Source of the DNA: Chlorophyllum brunneum | Taxonomy: Eukaryota; Basidiomycota; Agaricomycetes; Agaricales; Agaricaceae | Direction: 5' to 3' | NCBI GenBank assembly: GCA_963576785.1 | Contig: OY756142.1 | Coordinates: forward strand, 3,596,001 to 3,660,000 | Length of the DNA stretch: 64,000 nt | Shown here: one piece after another, positions 3,991 through 60,615 of the stretch | Layout of the letters: each line of letters begins with the position of its first letter | Numbering within the stretch: the stretch's first letter is position 1 | Notes under the pieces: model-generated | Told to the model about the DNA's origin: nothing | Database searches by the model: none | What the model saw: the letters and a program-made list of their open reading frames with translations, nothing else | Translations under genes and position numbers: made by a program

Positions 3991-4222
3991 ATGAAAACAG
4001 CTCGACTCTTATTCGTCCTTATTAGCATTGGTATTTCCACCACAATCGCTGCTCCGAGGCCTGCACCTTCTACCACGGATGCCTGTGAAACAACTACTTG
4101 ACTCATGAGCTGTGTACTTGAGAACAGGGCTGGTATTTGTCAGGGTGAGTCCGAGTTGTTGAGTTGACCCGAGTTTATATATCAACGATTTCTTAGATGA
4201 TAAATGCCTTTGTCTTCCTTAA
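3991..4222 (+). pseudogene. Secreted defensin-like Cys-rich peptide gene, stop codon at the second cysteine position
   Basis: Seen: ATG at 3991, a hydrophobic signal peptide (MKTARLLFVLISIG...TTIAA), a short Pro/Thr propeptide, then C-ETTT. The next codon (4099-4101) is TGA, followed by LMSC, eight residues, C and a GT donor (exon end 4144). Exon 2 begins at 4197 and encodes DDKCLCLP then TAA. Compared with the intact relatives here, the TGA sits exactly where the Cys of the C-x3-C motif belongs; the rest of the Cys pattern, the intron position and its phase are kept. Known: C-x3-C ... C-x-C is the CSalpha-beta defensin signature. Inference: a recently disabled paralogue closest in type to the 57.4-kb gene. 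Sec readthrough is very unlikely in this clade. Confidence 0.75.
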
Positions 4223-4614
4223 ACGCATCCAAGATACGAGAACGATAGTGTCTTGCACATTCTTCCTTACTTGTGAGCACGTCAGAAGCCGCCCTAATTC
4301 TATCTTATTGCTGACCCGAGCTAGAGCAGGTCTCCGCAATAAAATGTGAGCCTATGAATGCCACAAATCCGTTGCAAGAATTGATTGGATGTCGAGTGAT
4401 GTACGAACTTCCTTACCAATGTAGTTGGCACGAGCCCCTTGCATGAATACAAATTTCTTGCCCTACAAAAATGTCTTTCCATCGTGTTTATAAACTCCTG
4501 AATGACAGCAGCTAGCGTTCCACCTGACATGTCTAAACAGCTGCCTGTCTACCTTTTGCCCTCGACAGAGGCCCCTCACGCGACGCAGGCACATCCATCT
4601 ACGTTTTAACTACA
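4223..4614. other. Spacer between convergent Cys-rich genes
   Basis: Nothing recognised apart from the expected 3' ends of the two flanking convergent genes. A minus-strand open frame begins within it near 4530 without family features. Confidence 0.4.
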
Positions 4615-4806
4615 TCAACAGCATGAACATTCATCATATATCAGAGACTCACCCGGTGTGCAATTACCCAATGCGCCTCCCAGACCAACACAAGTTTTGT
4701 TACACACCTCCTGATCGCAGTAACTAACGGCTGGAAAATCGGGAGCGGCGATGGTGCTGGCAACAAAGAGGGCGATGAATAGGAAGGTAAATTGTGTGTG
4801 CTTCAT
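4615..4806 (-). CDS. Small secreted Cys-rich peptide, defensin-like with CxCC end
   Basis: Seen: 63 codons from ATG at 4806, single exon. Signal peptide MKHTQFTFLFIALFVASTIA, then C-x4-C-x3-C-x9-C-x10-C-x-C-C and stop. The spacing is identical to the gene at 60190, so the two are paralogues. Known: C-x3-C with a later C-x-C matches the CSalpha-beta scaffold; a seventh Cys ends the chain. Odd: unlike the rest of the local family it has no intron, yet the coding bases GGGTGAGT fall where the other genes have their phase-1 donor in a Gly codon. Inference: secreted antimicrobial or effector-type peptide. Confidence 0.7.
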   Translation of the reverse strand: MKHTQFTFLFIALFVASTIAAPDFPAVSYCDQEVCNKTCVGLGGALGNCTPGESLIYDECSCC

Positions 4807-5529: not shown

Positions 5530-6980
5530 GTTGGAGTAGACAAAATTGCCAACAAAAGATCCAAGAAATACGCCAATTGCTCATAGATTATCCCGTGCCA
5601 GGAAATTAGTCACCTCCGATACGCAGATCAATCTTGCGTTGGGGGACCCTGGAAAATGACCTTGCGATAGTGAGTCTTACTATTGCCCACCGGTGAGTTC
5701 AGCAAAATGATGATGAAAGTCGCGCTAGATCGAGCCAGCATTCCCAAATAATGGGACTGATAGCGATCCAAACAACAACTTCGCGTGAGGGTGAACAACT
5801 CCAAACCTAAAGGCTTAGCTATTTATAGCCGGTAGTGTAAACAGCGACGATTGCATAGTTTGGGTTTGAGCTCTCCGAAGAAAACATCATAACTAACCAT
5901 AATGCGAGATGTCTAACGCTGGACGGCTTCTAGCGGATGATTGGCATAGCTTCTCCACGCGGTTAAACACGGATGAGATAATTCCGCACCACAGGTAAAC
6001 TGACCCGTGTGTTCGCTGACACACAGTAAACATATGTGGATGAGTATCGATCGGTGAAGAGGGCTGAGCTCTCTGTCTCGTTTTGTAAAACAGACATTTG
6101 GCACACGAGCCCTTTGGGCGTGCGAGCCAATTCCTGGTCCTAAAATTTACCTGAAAAGAATTTCTTCCTTGGTCAGAATCCTGGTATACTGGCAGGGGTA
6201 CAATGGACGGGGCTATCGGGCTTCATCGACTCCGGGATACGATAATCTCATCTTGCATATCGTCATGGAGTATCCGTACCATCGAAACCAAGTCATAACA
6301 CACATTGGAGCTCTCCACCAGTTTCCAAACTGCGAGATCATCTATCATACCAACCCATATTGTATAAAAGCCTCGTACTAACCCTCAATTCAACCAACAA
6401 CAATAAAGCCTACTCAAGTTCTCGTCACTTTCATCGCTCTCTTCGCTACTACCGCTATTGCCACCCCCAGCCCCAATAACGAAGGCCTCGCAATCAGAGG
6501 CCTCGTTTGTGACTTTACGGGACCTGCTGCTGATGATGCGTGTAACGCTCTCTGCAAGCAAGAGGGTCACGGTAAAGGCGGCCATTGTATTGGTGGGTTT
6601 TACTGGAGGAATGGTGAAAGATGAGTTACTCATGCCGCGTCCTCCCACGATTAGACGGTACTTGTACCTGCAAGTAAACGTTGGCCATCCTTGAATGCCT
6701 TCGTATCCACCACGAGTGAGGAATTCTTTCTCTTTGCCTCCGATTCACCTGACGCTGAGGAGCTAGTCTAACGATCTTCAGTTTATTGAACGGATACGGA
6801 ATTTGCTAGTATGAGAGTGGAGGGTTGATGTAATGTTTTGGGTGATCGATGTGGAGAGCTAGTATCCAATGTTTTGTATCGCTGGAATGAGATGGTGTTT
6901 TAAACGAGATTGTACTGAAGCTACGGACAGAAACAGGAGAGCTACCGCGCTATGTAACCCTGTCAGTTGAATGAGTCAGT
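5530..6980 (+). repeat. Segmental duplication, copy A (partner at about 53.57-54.96 kb)
   Basis: Long DNA similarity to 53570-54960 in the same orientation, for example the strings CACCTCCGATACGCAG / CATCTCCGATACGCAG, the GCTTCTAGCGGAT block and the TATA-proximal region of the peptide gene. It carries a peptide gene with its promoter. A shorter inverted copy sits at about 52486-53000. Confidence 0.7.
6403..6677 (+). pseudogene. Plectasin-like defensin gene lacking its start codon (ATG replaced by ATA)
   Basis: Seen: where the family has ATG-CAG-CCT this locus has ATA-AAG-CCT (6403-6411); the nearest in-frame triplets upstream reach a TAA without any ATG. The rest is intact: signal peptide-like KPTQVLVTFIALFATTAIA, propeptide ending IRG, then C-x11-C-x3-C-x10-C. 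A GT donor follows at 6593. Exon 2 (6655-6677) encodes DGTCTCK and TAA. Known: this pattern with GKGGHC matches fungal plectasin-type CSalpha-beta defensins. Inference: translation loss by one base, everything downstream still clean, so inactivation is recent, or initiation uses ATA or another codon. A TATA-like box (GTATAAAAG) lies about 40 nt upstream. Confidence 0.8.
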
Positions 6981-20000: not shown

Positions 20001-20516
20001 TCAAAAATCATCCAAATCAAACCACCTCAACCAACTCTCCGGCATCAACGTATGTCTCACATCACCAAAAACTTGAATACCACCTTCAACATCCTCAGGA
20101 AAAAACAACCCAGCCCAACCAACCCCTCACCTCTCCTAACAACACGTATAATTTGATCTTCCGTTAATTGCATTTCTTCTGTTCCTTCTGGTTCGAATGC
20201 GGATAAGGCGCGGTAGAGACCTGGATGGAGTAGTTCTTCTCCTTGTAGTGAGTGTGAGTGATCTAGTTCATCTTGGTGTTGGAAGAAGAAGTTGGATGAG
20301 GGCAATGTTCTTCAGCGTCGTAGTATACATCCGAACTTTGTCCACTCCCACTTCATGTTCTTCGTATTCGAAATTCATTCCTATTTCTCCTCGAGTTGGA
20401 TACTTTGTCGATTCTTCTTGTTCTTCTTCGCGATAATGTTGTTGTTGAACTTGTTTCTTCAACCCCGCCCATCCAAAACTAAACCTTCCCAGTATTACTC
20501 CCCGCACTAAGCGCAC
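20001..20516 (-). pseudogene. SH3-domain protein fragment, frameshifted
   Basis: Seen on the minus strand: a charged exon KKQVQQQHYREEEQEESTKY then GEIGMNFEYEEHEVGVDKV (about 20475-20330), then HPGLYRALSAFEPEGTEEMQ, LTEDQIIRVVRRGEG. After a G-run (20123-20126 on the plus strand) the SH3 continues one frame off as VGWAGLFFPEDVEGGIQVFG, RHTLMPESWL and stop at 20001. Known: ALYxFEPEG ... GWxxxxxxxx ... LxPxSxL is the SH3 fold. Inference: a one-base loss in the G-run broke the domain; a sequencing error would look identical. The upstream region merges into the repeat at 20.5 kb, so the 5' end is lost or replaced. Confidence 0.55.
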
Positions 20517-21137
20517 TAAGGCCGGGAAAATGTCCATAGGAATCGGGGCAGCGGATGGAGAGATCGAAAAGGAGGGTGGTATTGAGCACCAAAGGGACTC
20601 TCGAAGTCCATGGAGATTGTCATGGAATGAGCACAGGAATACCACGTTGTCAGATCGGTCCAACGGGACCCTCGTTTGGGTGTGGAGTGACATGAACGAA
20701 CCTGGTGGATGTCGGTCGAAAACCCAATGGCAATATTCATTTAACATAAGCATGCCAACTTTCTTCAGACGCCAAAGGTTGTGCCTTTCAACGGACTCGA
20801 TCTTTCTGCCTTAATTGGGTTATTCATTGTCCTTAAATCCCCTGCTCCCCGCGTACTAGTATATCCTCTGTTGCGGAATCAACAACACTCGACATCGAAT
20901 AACCTCAGACACTCAAGAGGATCCATTTCACTCGCTGTCGTCTCATCAAGATATAGTCCATTAGAAGCAGTAAGTTACAGTCACGAAAACAATTATACGC
21001 TCAAGGTGATAATCCCTCTATCAAATTATGGCACGGGCTATATGAGTGATATCAGCATCCCGAACAGAGTTTTGTAGAATCCATTCCTCACCAGATAGAT
21101 GTACGGGCATATAGCGTCTTGTATACGTGCGGATCAC

Positions 21138-21406
21138 CTAGTGCAAGCAGGTACAGGTGGAACCTAAACACAAGTGAGTCCTCCATTCTATCGTACAAAA
21201 GACAAGTAATACTGACCGACACATTGTCCGCCTTTACCGTTACCTTCCTGTTTGCAGACAGTACTGCAAACATCGTTGGCTGCAGAGCCTAGGAAGTCAC
21301 AGATGAAACCACGGGCTTCAAGCGAGACGGGCTCAGTTGTGGGAGTGGCCATTGCGGTAGTGGCGAAGAGAGCGATGAAGGCGATGAGGATCTGAGTAGG
21401 CTGCAT
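21138..21406 (-). CDS. Plectasin-like defensin precursor (type S), unit 1
   Basis: Seen: ATG at 21406 (chosen over an upstream in-frame ATG at 21451 because all paralogues start MQPTQ). Exon 1 21217-21406, intron 21164-21216 (GTCAGT...TTTAG), exon 2 21138-21163; 71 residues. Signal peptide MQPTQILIAFIALFATTAMA, propeptide TPTTEPVSLEA, a single Arg, then a 39-residue mature region beginning GFIC with C-x10-C-x3-C-x10-C-x4-C-x-C and GNGKGG before the fourth Cys. Known: length, GF start, GG before Cys4 and the C-x-C end match plectasin-type fungal CSalpha-beta defensins, secreted antibacterial peptides of which plectasin binds lipid II. Inference: same fold; target untested. TATA box TATAAAAGG about 45 nt upstream. 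Divergent partner at 22517. Confidence 0.88.
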
Positions 21407-22516
21407 TGTTGTTGGAGTATGTAGGTTGTTGCTGAGTTCATCTTGTTGCACAGAGTGCCTTTTATACGCTGGACATATCGTTTCCTAAGGAGGTTAAGGC
21501 TATGTTTTTCTTTTGACTTGCGTTGTAGTCAAGTTTCTGGCTGACGGGTGAGTTGCTTGGCTCCACTTTGGACACAACAACGGATTGCTATCATGTTGAT
21601 AACTGATCATTGTGTATCCTTGCTAGATGAGTTCTGCATCGCCGTCGTATATGACTCTAGATATGGTCATTGTTTGGGATGAGCGTAGAGATGCATTACA
21701 GTGGAGCCGTTGAAGGCTGTTTTCGCGGAGTGCCTCGCATCTGTCAACGCCTCGTTATACGTTCCGTTAGGAGCCCAATAATATGTTGAGGTATATGCTA
21801 TCCCCCAAAGCCGCACGAACCATTAAAGCCCTCATATCATGCTTGCTAATCGAATTTATTAACTTCCCTACCACCCAATGACAGACGCTCGGAAGCTGTT
21901 TCCAAGTAGCAAAAAGAGAGATAACAATCATATACACACAGCGCTTTTACAGAGGTTTCGGAGCCAACGACCCCTTGTGACGGATCCCGTTCACAAGAGG
22001 ATTGTCAGGCTGTAACATGGCTTCACAACAGATGTTTGTCGAGGTGCAGGGACGACATTTTGACAGTGGAGGGTCTCATGGGGCCGACTAGTAGTGGGCA
22101 GTGCGCCAAGTCTGACCAGTGTTTTGTGGAGCTGTGTGCTATTTTTAGTGTTCTGGGGGTACTTGTGTTTTCTGCGGTGATGTTGGCAGGAAATATTGGA
22201 CTTGGACTGTTGTCAAGGCTGTCAAGACTGAAAGGCCGGTGTTAATGATAAGGGTCATGGCATGTCGTTTCACGTTACAATTTGACAAAAAATTTGCAGG
22301 CTCCATGAGATTAAAAATCAAAACGACCGTCGTTCAGCTAATGCTCTTGGATTGCAATGCGTGTAGAGACTGACTGACGGGGAGATATGTTAATGGGTAG
22401 TAATCATCTCCACAGCTTGATAATTTATTTAATAGCTGGACATTACGAAGAGTATAAAAGAGATCCAATTCCACCAGACGAGTTCTACATTCACAACAAC
22501 AACTCTAACATCGAAA
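21407..22516. promoter_or_regulatory. Divergent intergenic region of pair 1 (homologues at 24804-25967, 28151-29281, 31480-32665)
   Basis: About 1.1-1.2 kb in every pair, with TATA boxes at both ends and shared internal blocks, for example CTTTTGACTTGCGTTGTAGT next to the type S gene and GATTAAAATCAAAACGACCG next to type P. Its conserved presence in all four pairs suggests a shared control region (inference). Open frames inside (22036-22245, 28835-29026) shift frame between copies and are not genes. Confidence 0.6.
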
Positions 22517-22810
22517 ATGCAGCCTACTCAACTCATCGTCGCTCTCATCTCTCTCTTCGCTACTTCAGCAATCGCCAGTCCAGCCCGCGCTCGTGCTCCT
22601 ACACCCGGTGCACTCGAAGTTCGCGGCTTCATCTGCGATTTCCTGCCTGGACCTGCAGCAAATGATGCCTGTAGCACTGTGTGCAAGCAGGAAGGTAATG
22701 GTAAAGGTGGTCACTGTGTTGGTACGTTGTATTCTCTGCTTCGTGTAGTAGAAAGTGGTTTACTTATCATTTGATGATATACAGGGAGTACTTGTACTTG
22801 TTTGCATTAA
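22517..22810 (+). CDS. Plectasin-like defensin precursor (type P), unit 1
   Basis: Seen: ATG at 22517, exon 1 22517-22721, intron 22722-22784, exon 2 22785-22810; 76 residues. Signal peptide MQPTQLIVALISLFATSAIA, a longer propeptide (SPARARAPTPGALEV) ending in Arg, and a 40-residue mature region with C-x11-C-x3-C-x10-C-x4-C-x-C. It differs from type S by PGPAANDA in the first loop and His for Gln before Cys4. The phase-1 intron splits the Gly codon between Cys4 and Cys5. Known and inferred role as for the other plectasin-like members. TATAAAAG lies near 22455. The mature sequence is identical to those at 25968, 29282 and 31190. Confidence 0.88.
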
Positions 22811-22982
22811 TTGGGATGACTTGACTGTGTACATCCATTGGCGATGGGGGCAAAGATTCCCCTTGTTTCGTTTGTGTTGTCGTTTCTGACATTACATGTA
22901 TAGTCTTGAGGCGTACGGAGATGAATGTCGGATATTGTGATTTTATATCCTATTATAATAATATTTACTGGTCTTAAAATTC

Positions 22983-24140
22983 GTGTGTGCACCTGTGAAT
23001 GCCTTGGTGGGGGTTCCTGAAAGGGGGGTTGTTCGAGGCGTCATGGTGAGAATCAGGGTTTTCGTGATCGATAATTTTGATGTTGGACAAGAGGAACGAA
23101 TTGAACAGACTCTCCCTGTGATTGAACATGCCCAGACTGTTCTCTCTCCATACACGCACACTCATGACAAGCCTGATTTTATGCACTCTTCCCTCAATAT
23201 CGTGATGCTCACGGAAGGCTGATAATGGAAGGGATGAAACCAGGACTTGTTGTCAGTAACTACGGACGAGATTAGGAGAGTGGAAGGGTTGTCGAGAAAA
23301 AGTGTTCATGGGGAGGATGAATTGGGTAGGGTGAGTAGGCATCTTTCGGTGTATATACGCATCGAGTCTGGTCCTTGGAAAGCTTGTACTTCGAAGAACG
23401 TAGTTCCCGGTAAATGACAAGACCAATGCTGAGATCCTTGTGTACAATGCGATACAATAGCGGGTCAATGCTGGTTTATTGGAAAAGTAAGGGTGCCTTT
23501 GTAGTGGGAAGGGAGTGACGGGGTGGTACAGATGGTGGGTTTCGGACGGGAAGTGAGGTGAAGTTAGTGATGTTGGACTATCATAGAACCGTCGTGATGA
23601 TAAAGTCTGCAAGGTGAGACTTGCCTCAATGACCACCACAGCAACGATCATTGCCTCAGCTAATATTTGTTATTGCGAAATGTCTAGGAGTTGGATCAAA
23701 TCTGAGCAACGCAATATATTATTTATACGACGACGGGGTGTGGGGATGGGTTCCATATCCTGGCCCCACCATGGGTTCATTTGAAAGTGCTTAGGGATGG
23801 CTTTCAGAGGGATGTGTTATTGAGCGTGGATACCGGGCCTGGCAGGAGATATCGTTGATGCTTTGTGGGGTACGATGCGGGCGTGGGTGTGACAGCCGCG
23901 TGACAAACGCGTTTTTGTGCTCTTCCTCTGATTTGATGCTGTCACCTTTTGCAATTGGAGATCGAGAGGAGGTTGGTACGGAACACCAGAGTGACTCTCG
24001 AGGTTCGCGGGAATTGTACAAAGGTGAGTCTTCCCTTACGCCAGCGACTTGTCTGCAGACCAAAGTATATGCGGAACACAGGAATACCCTGTTGTCAGAT
24101 CGGTCTAGTGGGATCCCGTTTGGGTGCGGAGCGGCGTGAA
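22983..24140 (+). repeat. Array spacer 1-2, with inverted counterpart at about 33.4-34.6 kb
   Basis: Matches 34600-33400 read backwards: for example CACCTGTGAATGCCTTGG at 22990 against its reverse complement near 34560, and TATCATAGAACCGTC at 23579 against its reverse near 33765. It contains one R1 core (23888-23913). Open frames inside it are not conserved between copies. Confidence 0.75.
23888..23913 (+). repeat. R1 core repeat, copy 1
   Basis: GTGACAGCCGCGTGAC followed by AAACGCG. Embedded in a longer block that includes a CTGGCAGGAGATATC string. Confidence 0.6.
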
Positions 24141-24530
24141 AGAACCTGGCTGGACGTCGGTTGGAAACAGCAAAGTGGACCTCGTAAGAATTTTCTTCAG
24201 GCGCCTACTGTTGTGTCTTTAGAGTCGGACTCTATTTCTCTGTTTATCGTCCTTAAATTTCTCGCTTTACCCTTACCAGCATGACCTCTTTCACTTTTCC
24301 AATAACTCGAGACAATCAAGAAGATTCGGTTCACTCGTTGTCGTCTCATCAAGATATAGTCCATTAGAAGCAGTAAGTTAAAGTCACGAAAACAAGTATA
24401 CGCTCAAGGTGTGATAATTCCTCTATCAAATTATAGCACAGGCTATATGAGTGATATCAGCATCCCGAACAGAGTGTTGTAGAATCCATTCCTCACCTGA
24501 TGGATATAAGACCGTATACGCGCGGATCAC

Positions 24531-24803
24531 CTAGTGCAAGCAGGTACAGGTAGAACCTAAACACGAGTGAGTCCTCCATTCTATCGTACAAAAGACAAGT
24601 AATACTGACCGACGCATTGTCCGCCTTTACCATTACCTTCCTGTTTGCAGACAGTACTGCAAACATCATTAGCTGCAGAGCCTAGGAAGTCACAAATGAA
24701 GCCACGGGCCAAGCGAGACAGGTTCAGGTGCAGGTGTGGGAGTGGCCATTGTAGTGGTGGCGAAGAGAGCGATGAAAGTAATGAGGATTTGAGTAGGTTG
24801 CAT
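24531..24803 (-). pseudogene. Plectasin-like defensin gene (type S), unit 2, frameshifted in the propeptide
   Basis: Seen: ATG at 24803 and a normal signal peptide (MQPTQILITFIALFATTTMA), then a Pro-rich propeptide. At about 24709 two bases of the GAA codon before the Ala-Arg processing site are missing compared with the three other type S genes (CTTGGCC instead of CTTGAAGCC). The shifted frame ends at a TGA a few codons later. The mature region, splice sites and exon 2 (GSTCTCLH, stop 24531) are otherwise undamaged. Two extra propeptide codon pairs (6 bp) are also present. Inference: inactivated by a single 2-bp deletion, very recent. Confidence 0.85.
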
Positions 24804-25967
24804 TTTGTTATCGAAGAAAGTGAGTTGTTGTTGAGTTCGTTCTGGCACTTTGACTGCCTTTTATATGTTCGATATATCGTTTCCTAGAGAATTTAAGGCT
24901 ATTTTTTTGTTTTGACTTGCGTTGTGGTCAAGTTTCTGGTTGACAGGTGACTTACTTGAACTCCACTTTGGACAGAACGGCGGATTGCTATCATGTTGAT
25001 ACTGATAATTGTGTGTCCTTGCTAGACAAGTTCTGCACTGCCGCCATATATGACCTACATATGGCCATTAGGGACGTGCATAGAGATGGACATAGAGATG
25101 TATTACGGTGGAGTCGTTGAGGCTGTTTTCGTGGAGTGCCTCATGTCTGGGAGCGCCCGTTATACATTTGTTAGAAGCCCATAATACGTTGGTGTATACC
25201 CTATCCTCTAAAACCATGGATTCAAGGATTGGACGATCCAGTTCGATGCTTAATACAATAACTTTGATAAGGTATGATCTTGATAAACCTACATGAAGGA
25301 CTAAAGTCAAGCACCATGTCTTCCAATCAAACCCCCATACCACACATCCGTCGCCTAAAATAATGATAGACGCTTGGAAGCTGTTTCCAAGTAGCAGACA
25401 GAGAGATAACAATCGTATACGCAGGCAGAAATTTGACAGAGGTTTCGGAACCAACGTAAAGTCGATACTGTTCATAACATGACATGCAGGGACAACATCT
25501 TGACAGTGGAGTGTTTGGTGGGGTCGGCTATTGGGCACTGCACCAAGTCTGACCAGTGTTTTGTGGAGCCGTATGCTATTTTTAGTGTTCTGGCGGTAAC
25601 TTGTGTTTTCTGCGGCGATGTTCGCAGGGAATATTGACTTGGCCTGTTATCGAGGCTGTCAAGACTGAAAGCCGTTCATGATAAAAGTCATGGCATGCCG
25701 TCTCACGTTACAATTTGACAAAACATTTGGGGGCTCCATGAGATTAAAATCAAAACGACCGTTGTTCAGCTCATGCTTTTGGATTGCAATGCGGGTAGAG
25801 ACAGGCTAACAGGGAAATATGTTAACGGGTAGTAAAGTATCGTTATCGTCTCCACCTGTTTCACAATTTATATTTTTCTGAGATTATCTATAGCTGGACT
25901 TACGAAGGGTATAAAAGACATCCAATTCCACCAGACAAATTCTACATTCACTACTCTAACATTGAAA

Positions 25968-26257
25968 ATGCAGCCCACTCAACTCTTTGTCGCTCTCTTC
26001 GCTCTCTTCGCTACTTCAGCGGTTGCCAGCCCAGCCCGTCGTGCTCCTATACCTGGTGCACTCGAAGTTCGCGGCTTCATCTGCGATTTCTTGCCTGGAC
26101 CTGCAGCAAACGATGCCTGCAGCACTGTGTGCAAGCAGGAAGGTAACGGAAAAGGTGGTCATTGTGTTGGTAAGTTACCTTGTTGGTTCTCTATAGTGGA
26201 AATTTGTGACTTACCATATAACGACTTACAGGCAGCACTTGTACCTGCTTGCATTAA
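25968..26257 (+). CDS. Plectasin-like defensin precursor (type P), unit 2
   Basis: Seen: ATG at 25968 (six bases after an in-frame TTG), exon 1 to 26169, intron 26170-26231 (GTAAGT...TTACAG), exon 2 to 26257; 75 residues. Signal peptide MQPTQLFVALFALFATSAVA, propeptide SPARRAPIPGALEV with Arg at the processing site, mature region as in the other type P genes with all six cysteines. TATA box at about 25909 (GGTATAAAAG). Its divergent partner at 24803 is dead, so this unit makes only the type P peptide (inference). Confidence 0.88.
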
Positions 26258-27872
26258 TTGGGATTATCTTGATACCTTCGTACATCCGTTGATTAGATCC
26301 CCTCCCTTTCGTTTACATTCCCATTTTGGCATCATGTGTTAGTCTTGAGGTGTCCGAACATATCTTTGTCCGAGATTGTAGTCCTATACACTAATATAAT
26401 AAGCCACACCAATCTTAAGATTCGCACGTGTCCTTTGCGAGCGCTGTAGATATGGTTTGCTCCCATTGAAGCACCTTTACCCCAACAAATGGCCCGCAAT
26501 TTGCATGGTGCACTACTATCAAGCTACCACTCTGAGTGTGGCATATGCATGATAGATGCATCTCAACTTGGTGGGGACTAGGAGCGGCAGGATTCAGGAA
26601 GACTGAAGAGGGGTCTTGTTCCAGCCATCACGGCGAGGATCACGGTTTCCATGTCTGAATGTGGGATTAGGGTAATAATCGAATGCTTCCAAACTTTTCT
26701 CTCAGACACTCTCATTCATGACAAGCCTAATATTATGCGTTCCTCCCTCAATAGTATTCTTTACGCTCGGTAAAAGGTGATCACGGAACGGATGTAACAA
26801 AGGGGTTGGTGGTAACTAAGGATCGTAAGGCCTAGAATGTGAGAGCGGAAGCGGAAGCGTTCTAGAGTTCCACGGAGGATATGGTTTACCTAAATCACCA
26901 CATTGCGTTCCCCCAATGCCGCTCCAACACCCAGACAGATGGCCCTCATACCTTCCAAATCTATGCTCTCATTCGATATAATCGCAACGTCTAGGGTCGG
27001 GATATATCAGAACCCTATTCGACCAGTCCCATATATTATTTGAGCGATGCAGCGGCCGTGGTGGTGGGGTGGGTATCTTGGTCTAAATTTGGGTTCGTTT
27101 GAGGGTTCTCAAAAACGGCTGTCCAATGGTTTTATTCTTGAGCATGGATACCTGACCTGGCAAGAGATATCATCAACTTTTTATGGGGGACGATGTGGAA
27201 GCAGTGTGACAGGCGCGTGACGGACGCGTTTAGTTGTGACATCGCATTCAACTACACCCTGTCTGTGATCACCCAAGATCTTATACGCGTGTTCTCGTCC
27301 CCTTCCCGGATGTGGTAGACGCTGCATGCTGCTCTCGTAGGCAAGCTAGGCCTAAAAAACATCCACCCGGTTACAAAATTGACGGAAGAGGAACGGAATA
27401 GGGAAGTGGAACTCAGCAAAGGTATGTCACTAGGCACAAAGTGGGAGGCTCTCGTGATTGTATCAAGCTGGGTCTTCCTCTAAACGCGAAGATGACATGT
27501 TACCGGATTGATCCAAAGACATGAACGATAACTCACTTGTCCCTTCCTTATTGCAAGCTCAGACCAAGGGGAGTTGGGTGTCTACAGATCAATCGAGAAT
27601 TTACTGGGCATTAGCTAGCTTTAATCTGTCACTTCACGTGTACTATCCCAGACCAAATTCATCAGATTTCGGAATAAATGCCAATTGACATCGTGTCGTC
27701 TCCTCAAGATACAGTCCATTAAAAGCAGTATGTAAGGTATGGTTACTAAAAATAATGTACAACGGACCATAGCATAGGTTATATTATGGATATCAGCGTT
27801 CCGAACAAGGCGTTCTAAAACCTATTTCTCACCAGATAAATGTACGGCCGTGTCTTGCCCCGGACGGAAAAT
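26258..27872. repeat. Array spacer 2-3, inverted counterpart at about 29.93-31.19 kb
   Basis: The block at 26820-27270 recurs inverted at 29940-30700 (for example GGTCGGGATATATCAGAA at 26996 and its reverse near 30205). It contains an R1 core at 27205-27230. No conserved reading frame; the frame at 27252-27437 (-) is not preserved in other spacers. Confidence 0.7.
27205..27230 (+). repeat. R1 core repeat, copy 2
   Basis: GTGACAGGCGCGTGAC followed by GGACGCG; the preceding block contains CTGGCAAGAGATATC. Confidence 0.6.
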
Positions 27873-28150
27873 CTAATGCAGGCAGGTACAGGTAGAACCT
27901 AAGTACAAACCACATCATGAGTCCTTGAATTCCCCCATATGAAAGTGGAGTATAACTAACCAACGCATTGTCCACCTTTACCATTACCTTCCTGTTTGCA
28001 GACTGTACTGCAAACATTGTTGGCTGCGGAGCCTAAGAAGTCACAAATGAAGCCACGGGCTTCAAGTGAGACGGGCTCAGGTGTGGGAGTGGCCATTGCA
28101 GTGGTGGCAAAGAGAGCGATGAAAGTAATGAGAATTTGAGTAGGTTGCAT
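27873..28150 (-). CDS. Plectasin-like defensin precursor (type S), unit 3
   Basis: Seen: ATG at 28150, exon 1 27961-28150, intron 27899-27960, exon 2 27873-27898; 71 residues. Signal peptide MQPTQILITFIALFATTAMA, propeptide TPTPEPVSLEA-R, mature region with the six-Cys type S spacing; one difference from unit 1 is Asn for Asp in AANNVC. Splice sites and processing Arg intact. TATAAAGG-type box near 28207. Divergent partner at 29282. Confidence 0.88.
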
Positions 28151-29281
28151 TGTGTTTGTAGAAGAAGTAGCTGAGTTGATGTTGAATTCGTTCTGTATTC
28201 TGACTGCCTTTATAGGCTCTATATATCGTTTCCTAGGGAAGTTAAGGCTATGTTTTTCTTTTGACTTGCGTTGTAGTCAGGTTTCTGGTTGACGGGTGAG
28301 TTACTTGACTCCACTTTGGACAGAGTGACGGATTGCTATCATGGTAATAGTGATCATTGTGTGTCCTTGCTAGACGAGTTCTGCACCGCTGTCGTGTAGG
28401 ACTCTGGATATGGTAATAATAGAGATGGATTACGGTGGGGTTGTTGGAGGCTGTTTCCGTGGAGTGCCTCGTGTCTGTCAGTGCCTGTTATACACACCTT
28501 TAAGAGCCCTCAAAATGTTGATGTATACACACACTATCCTCTAAAATCATGCACTCAATGGCTGGACAAAATGACACCCAATTCAATGCTCAATATAATA
28601 AGGTATGATCTTGATAGATCTACATGAAGCGCTAAAGTCTAATACCATGTATACCGATCAAACATCTCATCCCCTAAAATAATCATAGACGCTTCGAAGA
28701 TGTTTCCAAGTAGCGGACAAAGCAATAACAATCATATACCCGGAGAGCAAATTTGATAGAGTTGGAACTAACGTACCTCAGTGATAGATTCCGTTCACAA
28801 CAGGATTGTCAAGCTGTAACATGGCTAAACATGTTTGTCAACATGGAGGGGTGACATTTTGACAGTGGAGTATCTTATGGGGGTGGCTAGTAGTGGGCAG
28901 TGTGGCAAGCAAAATGTCTGGCGGAGCCGTATGCTATTTTTAGTGTTCTGGCAGTACTTGTGTTTTCTGCGGCAGTGTTTGCAGGGAATGTTGGACTTGG
29001 CCTGTTGTCGAGGTTGTCAAGATTGAAAGACTAGTGTTAATGATAAAGGTCATGGCACATCGTTTCAACTTACAATTTGACAAAACATTTGCGGGTTTCA
29101 TGAGATTAAAATCAAAACGACCGTTGCTCCACTAATTCTTTTGGATTGCAATGCACGTAGAGACTGAGTATCTCCACAGCTTCGTAATTTATTTTTTCTA
29201 TAGCTGGACATTACGAAGAGTATAAAAGAGATCCAATTCCACTAGACAAATTCTACATTCACAACAACCATTATATTGAAA

Positions 29282-29571
29282 ATGCAGCCTACTCAACTTT
29301 TCGTCGCTCTCGTCGCTCTTTTCGCTACTTCAGCAGTTGCCAGCCCAACCCGTTGTGCTCCCACACCTGGTGCACTCGAAGTTCGCGGTTTCATCTGCGA
29401 TTTCTTGCCTGGACCTGCGGCAAACGATGCCTGCAGCACTGTGTGCAAACAAGAAGGCAATGGCAAGGGTGGTCATTGTGTTGGTAAGTTGTCTTGTTGG
29501 TTTCGTGTGGTAGAGGTTGGTTACTTACTATATAACGACTTACAGGCAGCACTTGTACCTGCTTGCATTAA
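29282..29571 (+). CDS. Plectasin-like defensin precursor (type P), unit 3
   Basis: Seen: ATG at 29282, exon 1 to 29483, intron 29484-29545, exon 2 29546-29571; 75 residues. Signal peptide MQPTQLFVALVALFATSAVA. The propeptide SPTRCAPTPGALEV is unusual in carrying an unpaired Cys, which replaces Arg seen in units 2 and 4. The mature region is identical to the other type P peptides. TATAAAAG near 29219. Confidence 0.87.
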
Positions 29572-29981
29572 TTGGGATGATCTTGATACCTTCGTGTGTA
29601 CATTAACGAAGTGAGTAAAAGTTCTTTCCTTTATCTGACATCATCATCCTGACATCACATGTGTAGTCTTGAGGTGTACGAAGATATCTTTGTACAATTG
29701 GTAGCCCTATATACTAAATATAATCTCCATAATAATCTGTCCCAGTCTCGCTATTCGCATGTGTTCGTGTGAATGCTGTTGGTATGATCCGTTCCTGTTG
29801 AAGCACCTTTACTGCAAAACATGGTCTGCAACTTGCATAAATCGCATGGCGCACTACTATCAAGCTATCAACCTGAGTGGGACGTATGTGTGATAGACTT
29901 GTCTTGGCATTTCCCCCTACATCATACTTAGACCAAGGTGATGGGGGTCAAGGTTTTCAATATGAATGCGATGTCACAAAT

Positions 29982-30009
29982 GAACGCGTCCGTCACACGC
30001 CTGTCACAC
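29982..30009 (-). repeat. R1 core repeat, copy 3 (inverted)
   Basis: Reverse complement of the R1 core, followed by GATATCTCTTGCCAGGCCAG. Lies just to the right of the inversion axis. Confidence 0.6.
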
Positions 30010-30235
30010 CTCTTCCACGTTGTCCCCCATAAAAAGTTGATATCTCTTGCCAGGCCAGGTATCCACGCTCAAGAATACAACAATTGGAAAGCCGCTTTCG
30101 AGCACTTTTAAACGAACCCAAATTTAGACCAGGATACCCACCCCATCACCACGACCCCTGTGTCCCTCAGATAATATATAGGACTGGTCGAGTAGGCTTC
30201 TGATATATCCCGACCCTAGATGCGTTGAGATTATA

Positions 30236-31185
30236 TTGAATGAGAGCATGGATTCGGAAGGCGTGAGGGTTATTGACTTAGGCGATGGCATAGCATTGCT
30301 GGTGGAACCCAAAGTAATTTATGCAAGTCACATCCATTTGTGCATTTTCGATAGAAACATGAATCTGGTTCCCTTCACATTTTGTACCGCAAACTCACCA
30401 CTCCATGATATCCAACGGCGCACTCTTTATATGCAGAGATCCGAAGGTTACCGTCAGTACCACCCCTATCACTCTCTTCCCGCTACAAAGGGTTCCTTAT
30501 TTCCAGGAACTACTATCGAAGTACCGGCATCCCGAGAGTTGAAAGTAGCGCATATATAGGGGTAAGAGAGGCAATTAGTATCCAATACATCTTCTAAGGG
30601 CAGAAGGATCCAGATACGGCGTCCTATTCTCCGTGAAGTTTGGTAGCCCTCTACTCTCACATTCTAGGCCTTACAATCCCTATCGTCCCTCATGATCAGG
30701 CTCTCGTGAGCATAGGCAGTACTGTTGAGCGTATAGTCAGGCTTTATTGGGAATGGGTGCATGTGGGTGTGTAGAGAGAGCAGCTCCATGATAGATACTT
30801 GTGTTCCTATACTACACTATCTCCGACCACAACTCGAATGAGACTCTTCGTCAACAACTTCCTTGAGTGCCGCCATTCCCAGTCCCCACTAAATCTGTCT
30901 ACATTTCTGCGTGATTTCTTCCATTCCGTTTATGGCTCAGTCTGGTAGGATGTTTATGTAGCAGGAAAACCCACCGCACTCACAAAGAACACAGGCAAAT
31001 GTTAAGACTGATACAGATTTATCGATATTATATGAGTATATAGGATTACAATCTCCATGACATTCAGAAGAAGATATCTTCGTACACTTCGAGACTGTAC
31101 ACACGATGGCAGGACGACGATGTTAAATGAAGGAAAGAACTTTTTCTGACTTCATCAATGTATGTACGAAGGTATTGAGATCATC
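30236..31185. other. Inverted spacer, no gene supported
   Basis: An open frame at 30236-30559 (+) has no counterpart frame in the 26.8-kb homologue and no domain features, so it is treated as non-coding repeat. Confidence 0.45.
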
Positions 31186-31189
31186 CTAA

Positions 31190-31479
31190 TTAATGCAAAC
31201 AAGTACAAGTGCTCCCTGTAAGTTGTTATATGGTAAGTCACCAACTTCCACTATAGAGAACCAACAAGGTAACTTACCAACACAATGGCCACCTTTTCCG
31301 TTACCTTCCTGCTTGCACACAGTGCTGCAGGCATCGTTTGCTGCAGGTCCAGGCAAGAAATCGCAGATGAAACCGCGAACTTCGAGTGCACCAGGTGTGG
31401 GAGCACGACGGGTTGGGCTGGCAACCGCTGAAGTAGCGAAGAGCGCGACGACAGCGACGAAGAGTTGAGTAGGCTGCAT
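31190..31479 (-). CDS. Plectasin-like defensin precursor (type P), unit 4 (inverted)
   Basis: Seen: ATG at 31479, exon 1 31278-31479, intron 31216-31277, exon 2 31190-31215; 75 residues. Signal peptide MQPTQLFVAVVALFATSAVA, propeptide SPTRRAPTPGALEV-R, then the six-Cys type P mature region. The TATA-like box lies near 31530 on the minus strand. This is the only type P gene on the minus strand, because the unit is inverted; the partner at 32666 is correspondingly on the plus strand. Confidence 0.88.
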
Positions 31480-32665
31480 TTTCAATGTAGATGTTGTTGT
31501 GAACGTAGAACTCGTGGAATTGGATCTCTTTATACACTTCGTAATGTCCAGATATAGACAATTTCAGGAAAAAATGATGAAGATGATTACGATACTTTAC
31601 TCCCCATTGACATATCTCTCTGTCAGTCTGTCTCTACATGCATTGCACTCCAAAGGCATTAGCTGAACAACGGTCGTTTTGATTTTAATCTCATGAAACC
31701 CACAAATGTTTTGTCAAATTGTAAGTTGAAACGACATGCCGTGACCCTTATCATTGACACTGGCCTTTCAGTCCTGACAACCTCGACAACAGACCAAGTC
31801 CAATATTCCCTGCGAACATCGCCGCAAAAAAACACAAATACCATCAGAACACTAAAAATAGCATGTGGCTCCACCATATGTTTTACTTGGCGAACTGCCC
31901 ACTAACCGCCCCCACCAAACACTCCACTGTCAAAATGACATCCCTGTACCTCGACAAACATCTGCCATTTAGCTATGTTACAGCTTGACAATCCTGTTGT
32001 GAACGGAATCTGTCACAAAGGGATGTTAGCTCCGAAACCTCTGTCAAAGTGCTGTGTGAGCATATGATTACTATCTCTCTTTCCGTTACTTGGAAATGAC
32101 TTCCAAGTGTCTATCATTACGTGGTACGGAAGATAATCAGCTTGATTAGCCATTATAATATTCGGACTTTAGGCCTTCATGTAAATCTATCAAGATTAAA
32201 CCTTGTCAAATTATCATATTGCGCATCGAATTGGATATCATTTCGTCCCATCCTTGAATGCAATGGTTTTAGAGGACTGCGTATACGTTAACGTATCAAG
32301 GGCTCCTAACAGAATGTTTAAAGGGCACTGACAGACACGAGGCACTCCATGAAAACAGCCTCCAACGACTCCACTGTAATACATCCCTGCCCATCCCAAA
32401 CAAAGTCAATCAATGACCATATTGAGAGTCATACACGGCGGTGGTGCAGAACGCGTCTAGCAAGGACATACAATTATCACTATCAACATGATAAGAATCC
32501 GTCGTTCTGTCCGAAGTGGAGTCAAGTAACTCACCCGTCAACCAGAAACTTGACTACAACGCAATGCAGAAAAAAAATAGCCTCAATTGCCTCAGTAAAA
32601 ACATATAAAAGGCAGTTGGAGTAACGGAACGAACTCAACAACAGCTCACCTTCTTCAATAACAAA

Positions 32666-32943
32666 ATGCAGCCTACTCAGATCCTCATCGCTTTCATCGC
32701 TCTCTTCGCCACCACCGCAATGGCCACTCCCACACCTGCACCCGTCTCGCTTGAAGCCCGCGGCTTCATTTGTGACTTCCTAGGCTCTGCAGCCAACGAT
32801 GTTTGCAGTACTGTCTGCAAACAGGAAGGTAACGGTAAAGGCGGACAATGCGTCGGTTAGTTATACTTCACCTTTGAATGGTTGAAAATTGGGAACTCAC
32901 GATATGATTGGCTTTAGGTTCTACCTGTACCTGCTTGCACTAG
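32666..32943 (+). CDS. Plectasin-like defensin precursor (type S), unit 4 (inverted)
   Basis: Seen: ATG at 32666, exon 1 to 32855, intron 32856-32917 (GTTAGT...TTTAG), exon 2 32918-32943; 71 residues. Signal peptide MQPTQILIAFIALFATTAMA, propeptide TPTPAPVSLEA-R, mature region identical to the unit 1 type S peptide. TATA box ATATAAAAGG near 32604. Confidence 0.88.
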
Positions 32944-33442
32944 GTGATCCGTGCGCATACAAGAAATGATACGGCTGTACATCTATCTGGTGAGGAACGG
33001 ATCCCACATCACTCTGTTCGGGATGCTGATATCGCTCATACAGCTTGTGCTATAATTTGATTATCACCTTGAGCGTATATTTGACTGTACTTTACTGCTT
33101 CTAATGGACTATATCTTGAAGAGAGGACGATGAGTGAAATGAATCCTTTTGAGTGTCTGGGGTTAGTGGAAATGTGAATTCGATATCGAGTGTGGTCAAT
33201 TCCTCAACAGAGGTGATACCTGTACGTGGGCAGCGAGGGATTTAAGGGACGCTGAATAGCCCAAGGAGAAAAAGCGACTCTGTCTAAAGGCACCACCGAC
33301 GAGCATCCCACTGGACTGATCTGATATCCCTGTGTGCACCTCAAGACAAGAAAGACGCATATATTTTTGACGGGTGGATGGACAAGTTACCGGCAGACAG
33401 GACAATCACCACAAAGAAGTCGAATGTGGAAAACGGAAAGGG

Positions 33443-33471
33443 TAAACGCGTGTGTCACGCGCCTGTCACAC
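33443..33471 (-). repeat. R1 core repeat, copy 4 (inverted)
   Basis: AAACGCG...GTCACGCGCCTGTCAC, followed by GATATCCTGCCAGGCCACG. Confidence 0.6.
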
Positions 33472-34600
33472 TTTGCATCATACCCACACAAAAAATCGAT
33501 GATATCCTGCCAGGCCACGTATCCAGGTGCAATAATATAACCCTTCGAAAGCTGTTTTCAAGCGCTCTCGAAAGAGCCCAAAATTGGACCGGGATACGGA
33601 CTTTACCCTACGACCCCCTCGTCGTACAGATGGCTCTCTGATTCCACCCGACATATCGCGATGAGAGCTATTGGCTCAGGTGATCACAAGAACGTTTCCG
33701 TGGGAGCGTAAAGTGATGATCGAGGCAAGCCAAGTCTCACTCTGCAGACTTTATCATCATGACGGTTCTATGATAGTCCAACACCATTAACCTCACCTCA
33801 CTTCTCGTCCAAAAGCTACCGTGGGTACCACCCCGTCACTCCTTTCCCACTCCGAACGCATCCTTACATTTTCAATAAACCAACGTTGGCCGGTTATCGT
33901 TTCTCGTTGTACACAAGGGTCTCGGAGTTGGCTTTGTCGTCAGGAACTACGTTCCTTGAAGCACAAGTGTTGCTGGAATCGGACCCGACATATAAATCCC
34001 GGAACTCGGTATCGAATTCATCTTTGTACACTCCATCTTGTCAACACCGAAACATCCCTACTCACCGGAATCCGTCCCCCATGAGTACGTTCCCTGGACC
34101 TCGACAACCCTCCCGCTCTCATAATCTAATCCGTAGTTTCTGCAAACGCTCCGAGTTTCATGGCTTTGTTGATCAGCCTTTAATGGGTGTAAAGAGTATT
34201 GTCGGAGGAAGAGTGCATAAAATCAAATTTGTCATGAATGTGCGTGTACAAAGAGAGAGTGGAGTCTCAGGGTGAATCACGGAGAGTCTGTTGAAATCGT
34301 TGTTCTCGTGCATTATTCGTATTGCTTTATCACGAAAAACCTGATTCTCACCCACGACGCCTCGAACAAGACTGTTCAGTTTTCCTGTATGTCACCGTCC
34401 CTCATTTCTTCACCGGGTTTCTGGACATGGTTGCCTGCACCCACTTCTACGTGATTCTGGTTTTCCCATCCCGCTTTACACCATCTTGAACGCCTTCTTA
34501 ACGGACGTAAAGTTTTACATTGCCACAAGTTATGACCCTCCCTCAGGAACCCCCACCAAGGCATTCACAGGTGCACACACGAATTTCAAGACCAGTAACG

Positions 34601-41947: not shown

Positions 41948-42088
41948 CCTTACCGATGGTTAAACCATTATCATCCTCTCTAACCGAGATAGGATGATAG
42001 GGCTTTACCTGACAGAGTTATCCTTGTATTTGATCATTGCTGATACGAGAATTTTCTTCTAGAAAGAAATACACTCGACAAAGATATT

Positions 42089-51864: not shown

Positions 51865-52485
51865 ACTTCCAGCGGATCCGGCTGAGAGCTGTTAAAGAGG
51901 GTGGTAAATTGGGCTGGATTTTTGATCTGCCTCACTTCGGTTACCTTTATGGCGGGGTGGACGAGCGCTGTAATATAGAAATCAGACCATCAAAGCTTCC
52001 CAAAGCCGCTGATTCGGCATTTTGGATAGTCTGAGAGAAAATGTCTGAATGCTGCCTAGCCGATTACAGTGGAACAAGCATCCAGTGCAAACGTCCTTCT
52101 ACCCGAATGCCCTGCCAACGGTATCATGGTACTCACTATCTTTGACCCGAAACTTGGCTGAATATGTGCATATTTTGGAGCTTTAGTGCAAAGCCAGTTG
52201 TGAAAGCTATTTTATTTCTAGATAGAGGAGCCCGACTACAGCCTTGTGAAGACAGCTGTTTGTCATGCTTGATATATCAGATAAATTATGTCCCAGAAGC
52301 TGATGCATGATTCTTACCATCAGGGGTCCAAATGAGAGAGGAGGTGGGGAGGTGGCTGAATTGGGTCCAAGTTTTGACGACAGGATATCCGATTTGAGCT
52401 TCATGGTGAACGTCGTGTTATGTTATGAAGTGTCCTGAGTGAACCTCTGATATCTCCCTTCATGAAGTTCATGAATGCAGCTCTC
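51865..52485. other. Spacer, promoter side of the membrane protein
   Basis: Minus-strand frame 52207-52404 lacks features. No gene supported. Confidence 0.4.
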
Positions 52486-52576
52486 TGACTGCGAGGCGTT
52501 CATTATTGGGGCTGGGGGTAGCAATAGCGGTAGTAACGAAGAGAGCAATGAAAGTGAGAACTTAAGTAGGCTTCAT
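52486..52576 (-). pseudogene. Truncated plectasin-like defensin gene, mature region lost
   Basis: Seen: ATG at 52576 in the context ATG-AAG-CCT-ACT-TAA, so codon 5 (Gln in relatives) is a stop. The signal peptide-like sequence then continues (VLTFIALFVTTAIA), one Val codon shorter than the 6.4-kb copy, through propeptide PSPNNERLAVR. Similarity ends abruptly exactly at the processing site; the Cys-rich region is absent. The upstream flank to about 53000 matches the promoter region of the 6.4-kb copy, in inverted orientation. Confidence 0.75.
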
Positions 52577-57349: not shown

Positions 57350-57617
57350 TTATGTGCCGAAGCACTGGCAAGCCCCCCCTGAAACAGGTTTAAATCACAC
57401 GAGGTGAAATTCTCTGAGGATTCTGAGGTTAAAGGAGTGCGCGTCATCACTCACGGTTACAAATCCCAGCATGAAATCCTCTCGCCGCACAGTAACGTAT
57501 GCAGCCATTGGGGTCCCCTGTCTCGCATGGATCGAGAGCTGAAGAGGATAGTGAAGTCGCTAGGATTGGCATAGCAAAAAGGGAGATGAGGGCTATGATA
57601 ATGTGAGCAGGTTTCAT
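57350..57617 (-). CDS. Defensin-like secreted Cys-rich peptide, two exons
   Basis: Seen: ATG at 57617 (MKPAHIIIALISLFAMPILA signal peptide; an in-frame ATG at 57662 is less likely), exon 1 57455-57617, intron 57379-57454 (GTGAGT...TTTCAG), exon 2 57350-57378 giving GACQCFGT and TAA; 63 residues. Cys pattern C-x7-C-x3-C-x9-C-x4-C-x-C. The phase-1 intron between Cys4 and Cys5 matches the main defensin family, so common descent is likely despite low similarity. No dibasic or single-Arg processing site is obvious before the first Cys. Closest structural relative is the broken gene at 3991. Confidence 0.75.
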
Positions 57618-58045
57618 GGGTGCCGACGGTGAAGTGATGACGTGTGGAGAGCGAGGGGCCATTACCCGGGTTATGGTCGACCTTTAATAGCTAGGTCATA
57701 AGCTCACCTGCTGGAGCTTCATCTCCATGACCCGGAGTATCGGGGCAGGTTACTCTAAGTTCCACCACTCGACTGTCTTCTCTTACATATATGGCGTTAC
57801 ACTGCCTACGTGAGCCCCACAACATGCAGTGGGTCTTTATGAACACACGTTTAGTAAACATGATCCAGTAATCGAGTCTATGGAGCTACACATTTAATCC
57901 ACCACCTCCTTGCTCTAATCAGACATTCGAAATAACCATCTTATCTGCGATAGAACAAAGATTATTCGTCCTATGTCAGCAGAGCAGACTCGGATACAAA
58001 CGATCAACTCACCGAGAAGAGTAAAATGGACTTGAAGGTTGTCGC
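57618..58045. other. Spacer between peptide genes
   Basis: Promoter of the 57.4-kb gene and 3' flank of the 58.0-kb gene, both on the minus strand; nothing else seen. Confidence 0.4.
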
Positions 58046-58276
58046 TTAGTTCAAGCAGGTGCATTGGAGAATATCTAAATAACAGCCAGATCCTAGAGAA
58101 ACGAGCATATAACGATATTCGAACTTACCAGTGCAACGACCGCCTTTTTTGCCTTCTTCCTTACAGACCGCTTCACAAGCCTCATCGGTTCCAGGACCCA
58201 AGGTACAGATGTCTCCAGCAGCTACAGCTGTGGCAAAGAGGGCGATAAGTATGGCAAGGTATTGTGTGGGCCTCAT
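58046..58276 (-). CDS. Plectasin-like defensin precursor with a readable intron
   Basis: Seen: ATG at 58276, signal peptide MRPTQYLAILIALFATAVAA, then almost no propeptide, and C-x9-C-x3-C-x9-C with KKGGRC before the intron. Exon 1 58129-58276, intron 58075-58128 (GTAAGT...TTTAG, 54 nt), exon 2 58046-58074 (DILQCTCLN, TAA); 58 residues spliced, with C-x5-C-x-C at the end. Odd: the intron length is a multiple of three and has no stop, so the unspliced message encodes a 76-residue variant with an extra Cys. Same intron position and phase as the 21-33 kb family; MxPTQ start also shared. Confidence 0.78.
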   Translation of the reverse strand: MRPTQYLAILIALFATAVAAGDICTLGPGTDEACEAVCKEEGKKGGRCTGKFEYRYMLVSLGSGCYLDILQCTCLN

Positions 58277-60189: not shown

Positions 60190-60390
60190 ATGAACCACAC
60201 ACGAGCGGTCTTTGCCTTCGTTGCCGTCTTTGTTGCTAGCACGGTCGCTGTGCCTAGCACGCAACCCGATGGCGCATGTGACGGAGAAAGATGTAATAAA
60301 GGTTGTATCGACCTTGGAGCTACATTGGGTCTTTGCGCGATAGGTCAGTCTCCGATGCATGCCAAGTGTTTATGCTGTCGATACGAGTAA
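60190..60390 (+). CDS. Small secreted Cys-rich peptide, paralogue of the 4.6-kb gene
   Basis: Seen: 66 codons, single exon. Signal peptide MNHTRAVFAFVAVFVASTVA, then C-x4-C-x3-C-x9-C-x10-C-x-C-C, the same spacing as at 4615, followed by RYE. The C-x3-C and C-x-C placement fits the CSalpha-beta scaffold with one extra Cys. The loop between Cys4 and Cys5 starts with coding bases ATAGGTCAGT at the position where the two-exon relatives have their donor. Function unknown; secretion strongly suggested. Confidence 0.72.
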   Translation: MNHTRAVFAFVAVFVASTVAVPSTQPDGACDGERCNKGCIDLGATLGLCAIGQSPMHAKCLCCRYE

Positions 60391-60615
60391 AAATTAGATG
60401 GATGTGCTTGTATCGCCCCCTGAGGTGTATTGCAAAGAACTTCTCGGAGGGCTATTCTTCGGATTGAGGATGGGATTAGTGGTTGATCTTGGCAGCGTTT
60501 CTATCTTCTCTCGCGTTGTCTGTATTGAATGGGTAGCTAGGTACTTTTTTACTGGGCGTCATTTATCAGTGGATCTGGAGTAAGTTGATAAGACTACTAC
60601 GGAACAAACATTTTA

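Follow-up and report, generated by a model that had tools for sequence, protein, structure and literature searches.

The 64,000-nucleotide stretch of Chlorophyllum brunneum DNA analyzed here, called the window (C4:3596001-3660000 of a genome with 38.9 Mb in 14 contigs), carries a paired array of defensin-like genes. Eight homologous two-exon genes were located at 21138-32943 by tblastn and gene models with checked ends; seven are intact and one, B2, is frameshifted. The original prediction, made from the sequence alone, had described eight such genes within 12 kb, seven of them intact and arranged in divergent pairs, and both the count and the layout were borne out. The array consists of four divergent pairs, each with one gene of kind B and one of kind A; pairs 1-3 run head to tail, and pair 4 is inverted. 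The mature A peptide is held by strong purifying selection and has been multiplied; its uniformity does not come from recent copying. The most likely reading, with a probability of roughly 0.55, is that the array raises the dose of secreted host-defence peptides whose target is constant and differs from the full lipid II interface of plectasin. This figure and the likelihoods worded below for the alternatives are judgements, and they overlap.

In the proposed mechanism, the locus would be a subtelomeric cluster of defensin-like genes of the abisin type (fDEF1) in an Agaricus-like mushroom, in which one divergent B and A gene pair was copied to the four pairs now present, three in one direction and one inverted. 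Each precursor would comprise a signal peptide, a short propeptide cleaved after one Arg, and a core of 39-40 residues, expected to fold as a helix and a beta-hairpin with three disulphides in the pairing 1-4, 2-5, and 3-6. The array would supply a higher dose of two fixed peptides that defend the host against microbes, and a constant target would explain why these peptides stay unchanged. The target surface would differ from the full lipid II interface of plectasin, and the N-terminal backbone contact (GF-x-C) may remain. Secretion, cleavage, fold, and use of the A and B peptides are predicted here from the sequence.

Organization of the array and its peptides

Contig C4 terminates in 18 TTAGGG units (last 110 bases), and the chromosome end thus looks complete. 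This (TTAGGG)n telomere lies 20 kb past the window end, which places the array about 51-63 kb from a telomere. The features of the array are as follows (window positions).

20777..34369, no strand: duplicated DNA span, from self-comparison
21138..21406, minus strand: B1, intact, two exons; intron 53 nt, phase 1; mature peptide GFICDFLGSAANDVCSTVCKQEGNGKGGQCVGSTCTCLH
21407..22516, no strand: divergent intergenic region of pair 1, 1110 bp, from gene starts and conservation analysis
22517..22810, plus strand: A1, intact, two exons; intron 63 nt, phase 1; mature peptide GFICDFLPGPAANDACSTVCKQEGNGKGGHCVGSTCTCLH
24531..24803, minus strand: B2, frameshifted copy, pseudogene
25968..26257, plus strand: A2, intact; intron 62 nt; mature peptide identical to A1
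27873..28150, minus strand: B3, intact; intron 62 nt; mature peptide one residue off B1 (AANNV)
29282..29571, plus strand: A3, intact; intron 62 nt; mature peptide identical to A1; extra propeptide Cys
31190..31479, minus strand: A4, intact; intron 62 nt; mature peptide identical to A1; inverted unit
32666..32943, plus strand: B4, intact; intron 62 nt; mature peptide identical to B1; inverted unit

The A genes start at 22517+, 25968+, 29282+, and 31479-, and the B genes at 21406-, 24803-, 28150-, and 32666+. The start-to-start gaps within pairs 1-4, calculated from these coordinates, are 1110, 1164, 1131, and 1186 bp. By self-comparison, the main matches between the array units are 75-79% identical over 0.9-2.3 kb, and downstream pieces are 68.6% and, over 310 columns, 87% identical.

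Exon 1 of the array genes encodes a signal-like peptide, a propeptide ending in EVR or EAR, and the first four Cys. In all seven intact genes EVR or EAR stands directly before GF, so the propeptide ends in a single Arg. The short exon 2 ends in GSTCTCLH, and the phase-1 intron has 53-63 nt. The mature core of 39-40 residues reads C-x(10/11)-C-x3-C-x10-C-x4-C-x-C with GG before Cys4. The signal-like N-terminus, the single-Arg propeptide, and the six-Cys core with these motifs were thus recovered by sequence as originally described. The propeptide Cys of A3 sits in SPTRCAP; the other A genes have none.

An intron between Cys4 and Cys5, in phase 1, was present in 11/11 intact genes of the window. 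Judged from the reading frames, intron retention would leave Cys5 and Cys6 beyond a stop or out of frame. The splice donors are GTCAGT or GTTAGT in B genes and GTAAGT or GTACGT in A genes. Net charge, computed as K+R minus D+E, is -1 for A and B and 0 for B3; the array peptides therefore lack the net positive charge of cationic antimicrobial peptides. The calculated mass of the oxidised A peptide is 3993.4 Da.

Evolution of the array

Among A1-A4, the mature region has 17 variable sites, and 17/17 are silent (p = 4.6e-12 versus 25.8 silent of 120 sites). In the signal peptide and propeptide of the same genes, 11/19 variable sites fall in amino-acid-changing codons (Fisher p = 1.5e-4 versus the mature region). 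For B1, B3, and B4, 12/13 variable sites of the mature region are silent, and 5/14 variable sites before it lie in changing codons; the two regions do not differ significantly (p = 0.16). These statistics take variable sites as independent. In the mature region of the A genes, the pairwise number of synonymous substitutions per site (dS) is 0.23-1.10, with values near or above 1 being unreliable, and that of nonsynonymous substitutions (dN) is 0; in the B genes dS is 0.17-0.72 and dN 0-0.011.

Exons have a four-way identity of 0.90-0.93 (B2 counted), compared with 0.74-0.75 for introns, 0.745-0.795 for intergenic regions, and 0.51-0.59 for downstream DNA. The higher identity of exons than of introns supports the use of exon 2. 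Gene conversion alone was ruled out as the cause of the identical mature peptides, since the genes are not alike at silent sites or in their introns. A strongly conserved bidirectional promoter was also considered and rejected, because intergenic identity is about that of the introns; 12 invariant runs of 13-20 bp occur across the four units, and three of them lie between the genes. The array is an old cluster in which the genes were multiplied, the surroundings drifted, and the mature peptide stayed fixed.

Family membership and fold

Only one relative carries a name, hypothetical protein P0001 of Agaricus bisporus H97, with 73% identity over the precursor (expectation value E 1.6e-26); the A and P0001 cores differ at 5/40 mature residues. 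The mature part of P0001 has 40 aa and 4096.5 Da, and abisin1/2 is printed with 40 aa and 4097 (PMC4165938). P0001 is therefore abisin1/2 by length and mass, and the array genes belong to the abisin / fDEF1 group by similarity. The group's layout of signal peptide, propeptide, and one intron in the helix or c-loop was also found in them by sequence. The abisin intron appears to lie in the c-loop, judging from the relative P0004, in which the frame continues across that region. A profile built from 12 family members retrieved the same eight proteins again.

The CS-alpha-beta framework C...C-x3-C...C...C-x-C occurs in 11/11 intact genes, a framework that the scanner described below itself required. 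Against Pfam Defensin_2 (PF01097), S58, a relative outside the array, scored above the cut-off (23.8 versus 20.4 bits) and S57 below it (14.0); S4, S60, P0001, A, and B were not listed.

The structure model of P0001, a stand-in for the window peptides, has a helix at 42-54 and strands at 59-63 and 66-70, with a predicted local distance difference test (pLDDT) value of 69.5. In the Foldseek search with this model, 20/25 rows were titled scorpion toxins or defensins, none significant (best E 0.99). A search with a single A peptide ranked scorpion Cn2 first (E 0.004), and the family profile matched drosomycin best in PDB (E 0.03), followed by defensin ARD1, again without significance. Because these E-values are weak (0.004 and 0.99 at best), the scorpion-toxin matches are read as a shared fold. 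The fold matches are mostly toxins and defensins of the CS-alpha-beta kind, and the fold is probably shared with plectasin, although the evidence for it is weak.

Comparison with the plectasin lipid II interface

Plectasin is described as binding lipid II via F2, G3, C4, C37, and H18 (PMC10771296, PMC3418506). Solid-state nuclear magnetic resonance in PMC11222147 adds the loop I22, K23, Y25, K26 and the side chains of Y29 and Y40, and the same text describes a calcium-binding DEDD patch. Across the equal-length Cys2-Cys4 block, the A and B peptides read V, K, E, G, G, K, and H/Q at plectasin positions 18, 20, 22, 23, 25, 26, and 29. Only K20 and K26 are kept among these seven positions, and position 22 is acidic. 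Among the contacts F2, H18, I22, K23, Y25, K26, and Y29, the A and B peptides keep F2 and K26, and the other five are replaced. Position 3 is I (G3 in plectasin), and the peptides end in LH. No acidic cluster is present in the n-loop, the DEDD patch is missing, and the C-loop has two residues fewer than that of plectasin. Among 16 aligned sequences, F2 occurs in 15/16, Cys1 in 16/16, and His at position 18 in 0/16.

The loop similarity to plectasin was reached by Cys-anchored shuffles in 36 (A), 209 (B), 112 (P0001), 48 (S58), 32 (S57), 594 (S4), and 270 (S60) cases, raw counts of 1000 in seven comparisons. Beyond the cysteines, the similarity of A and B to plectasin thus appears marginal. The original term "plectasin-type" is too strong as a statement on function; "plectasin-like" is apt for the family and probably the fold, but not for the lipid II interface, where most contacts are replaced.

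Scattered relatives in the window

Nine further relatives had been predicted outside the array; eight were found, four intact and four degenerate.

3991..4222, plus strand: candidate degenerate copy of the short n-loop type, exon 1 interrupted by a stop; the least sure relative
4576..4806, minus strand: S4, intact; shared signal peptide and phase-1 intron; short n-loop core C-x4-C-x3-C-x9-C-x4-C-x-C
6403..6677, plus strand: S6, degenerate; homologous place without ATG, otherwise open
52478..52576, minus strand: signal-exon remnant, 79% identical to S6 over 34 residues
54396..54662, plus strand: S54, degenerate; ATG lost, frame broken
57350..57617, minus strand: S57, intact; shared signal peptide and intron; core C-x7-C-x3-C-x9-C-x4-C-x-C
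58046..58276, minus strand: S58, intact; no propeptide seen; above the Pfam Defensin_2 cut-off
60190..60423, plus strand: S60, intact; S4 subfamily (E 9.5e-11 in the genome search with S4)

The start of S57 was placed at the inner ATG, and another in-frame ATG lies upstream at 57662. The copy at 3991 and the intact S4 are convergent and about 0.35 kb apart; the related intact S60 is 55 kb away. A protein search with S4 found no candidate. Net charge is -3 for S58, S4, and S60 and 0 for S57.

Signal-peptide scores were 53 for S57, 52 for S58, 49 for S4, 46 for S60, and 33 for the degenerate copy at 3991; the best score among 250 hydrophobic Met-starting 22-mers from the flanks was 24. When the signal peptides of S57, S4, and S60 were compared with that of B, the score was reached by 0, 2, and 0 of 1000 shuffles of regional composition. 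The mature loops of S57, S4, and S60 matched A no better than chance (911, 543, and 616 of 1000 shuffles). The mature parts of S4 and S60 match each other (0/1000), and S58 matches A in both signal and mature parts (0/1000 each). S57, S4, and S60 therefore behave opposite to the array: the signal peptide and intron are shared, and the mature sequence is not.

We offer as a more tentative reading that one locus holds two modes of defensin evolution: a frozen array that serves dose and not diversity, and relatives with a kept signal exon and a remade mature part. The lipid II surface may then have been traded, with a different invariant target for the abisin family.

Chance controls and genome-wide distribution

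The gene scanner required a start resembling a signal peptide, the motif C-x(3-14)-C-x3-C-x(5-13)-C, an intron with GT-AG borders, and C-x-C at the end. It found 7 window genes under a strict donor rule and 11 under a loosened rule, which was introduced after the B genes were known in order to admit their donors. On Markov shuffles, no genes were found in 20/20 with a start codon required and in 20/20 without. When loops were allowed to be slightly wider and genes to lack the intron, the window again gave the same 11, and its flanks of 100 kb and 19.8 kb (119.8 kb in total, one chromosome arm) gave 0.

Genome searches with A, S58, S57, S4, and S60 gave 13, 13, 3, 3, and 2 matches. All lie within the window save two weak S57 matches at C4:1.87 Mb, which were judged noise (E 0.16). 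These searches score best candidates only, and absence elsewhere holds at that sensitivity; on this scale, convincing family matches are confined to this locus. The Pfam Defensin_2 search of the genome gave a single match, S58, below the cut-off, and the same search gave below-cut-off matches in 3/14 control genomes as well.

Alternative explanations

The peptides could be true plectasin-type antibiotics that stop cell-wall synthesis in Gram-positive bacteria by binding their lipid II. The common framework with C-x3-C, GG before Cys4, and C-x-C agrees with this, as do the near-universal F2 and Cys1 and the retained K20 and K26, and PMC6272156 states that every characterised classical fungal defensin targets lipid II, with slightly different specificities. 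The loss of His18 alone decides nothing, since NZ2114 with His18 changed to Lys is more active (PMC5321639), and Table 1 of PMC11222147 has several mild exchanges at positions 25 and 29. However, the same source describes hydrophobic or aromatic residues as needed at 22 and 25. An acidic residue at 22, as in A and B, raises the minimum inhibitory concentration (MIC) to >50 versus 0.78 for plectasin, being inactive at the top dose, and K23A and K26A lose fivefold to tenfold. The five replaced contacts, I in place of G3, the missing DEDD patch, the shorter C-loop, and the marginal loop similarity also stand against lipid II binding, which we regard as unlikely. Drosomycin and defensin ARD1 are antifungal, and the lead of these two in the family profile search (VCKEEGR-SSGHC versus VCKqEGnGkGGHC) would suit a mainly antifungal action in the drosomycin/heliomicin manner, for example against fungal parasites of mushrooms. 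That match is not significant (E at least 0.03) and is limited to the helix and its loop, the ranking changes to scorpion Cn2 with a single A peptide, and the peptides are not cationic; such an action seems rather improbable.

A role as endogenous signals or fitness factors of mushroom development, not as weapons, is considered equally doubtful. A frozen mature peptide fits a fixed receptor, and the low charge is compatible with it. Aspergillus anisin1 connects stress signalling and development (PMC4165938), and the Pyronema defensin genes are reported as down-regulated during sexual development (PMC3778014). On the other side, seven near-identical clustered genes suit dose over signalling, and the unrelated mature loops of S57, S4, and S60 under a shared signal peptide are frequent in weapons. 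The array might also be an assembly or haplotype duplicate or an inactive repeat set, and broken copies do occur (1/8 in the array, 4/8 outside). An assembly duplicate was rejected on the unit identity of just 75-79%, and seven open frames with almost wholly silent change in the mature region make an inactive repeat set highly improbable.

Other genes in the window

Ten pieces of the window were tested against Pfam, three without match. A FAD (flavin adenine dinucleotide)-linked oxidoreductase gene at 37153-38116(-), with FAD_binding_4 in the piece 37709-38116, lies between the array and a copia-type retroelement at 42044-48112. One tested piece of this element carries integrase core, GAG-pre-integrase, and polymerase SH3-like domains, and its frame is broken in several places. 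Two terpene synthase genes (Terpene_syn_C_2) at 49610-50011(+) and 60616-61357(-) have C-terminal exons similar by eye; the defensin-like copies at 52.5, 54.4, 57.5, 58.2, and 60.3 kb sit between them. A short-chain dehydrogenase fragment and an aldo/keto reductase fragment were also identified by Pfam.

Significance and comparison with known systems

The array enlarges the little-studied abisin family of mushroom defensins. The family itself is already known; the size and evolution of an abisin array are new here. Searches of an open-licence paper library, which did not cover figure 6C of PMC4165938 on the abisin arrangement, turned up no report of the paired layout, a silent-only abisin array, the subtelomeric setting, or the S57 and S4/S60 subfamilies; a paired layout of the abisin genes may thus exist in that figure. 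Purely silent change speaks against the common view that arrays of antimicrobial peptides generate diversity. Seven near-identical selected genes lacking most plectasin target contacts form a clean natural test: the target of their peptides would tell whether the fungal defensin scaffold hits a target other than lipid II.

Fungal defensins had been taken to occur as one or a few genes per genome. This does not agree with the clusters in print, which are given as 6 genes in Pyronema, 14 in Mortierella alpina, and 3 in Agaricus bisporus. The array is a notable expansion relative to the three abisins, but fungal defensin arrays are not unprecedented.

The closest system is abisin1-3 of Agaricus bisporus (fDEF1; Wu, Gao & Zhu 2014, PMC4165938), with three genes and cores of 40/40/39 residues. 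Like the array genes, the abisins are acidic, have one intron, and include paralogues that share a contig. Two of them encode the same mature peptide, with four silent differences (PMC4165938). The text of that paper equates the mature peptides of abisin1 and abisin3, and its Table 1 gives equal size and mass for abisin1 and abisin2, so one looks like a slip. Unlike the abisins, the array has eight genes (seven intact) in four divergent pairs, is less acidic (-1 or 0), and is accompanied by eight scattered relatives with subfamilies absent from the text of PMC4165938.

The pyronesin cluster of Pyronema confluens is described with six plectasin-like genes, of which two are pseudogenes, in a stretch of about 10 kb (PMC3778014, PMC4165938). 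It differs in belonging to an ascomycete, in charges of +0.2 to +2.4, and in intergenic regions described there as not conserved, and pyronesin4 is reported to bind lipid II (PMC8877149). The malpisins of Mortierella alpina form a large defensin-like family with tandem members, as in the array, but comprise 14 genes on five contigs with sizes of 33-48, charges of -3.5 to +5.4, and diverse mature peptides (PMC4165938). With plectasin of Pseudoplectania nigrella, the array peptides share the cysteine framework, the N-terminal GF, and GG before Cys4; they differ from it in most lipid II contact residues, in the DEDD calcium patch, and in the length of the C-loop.

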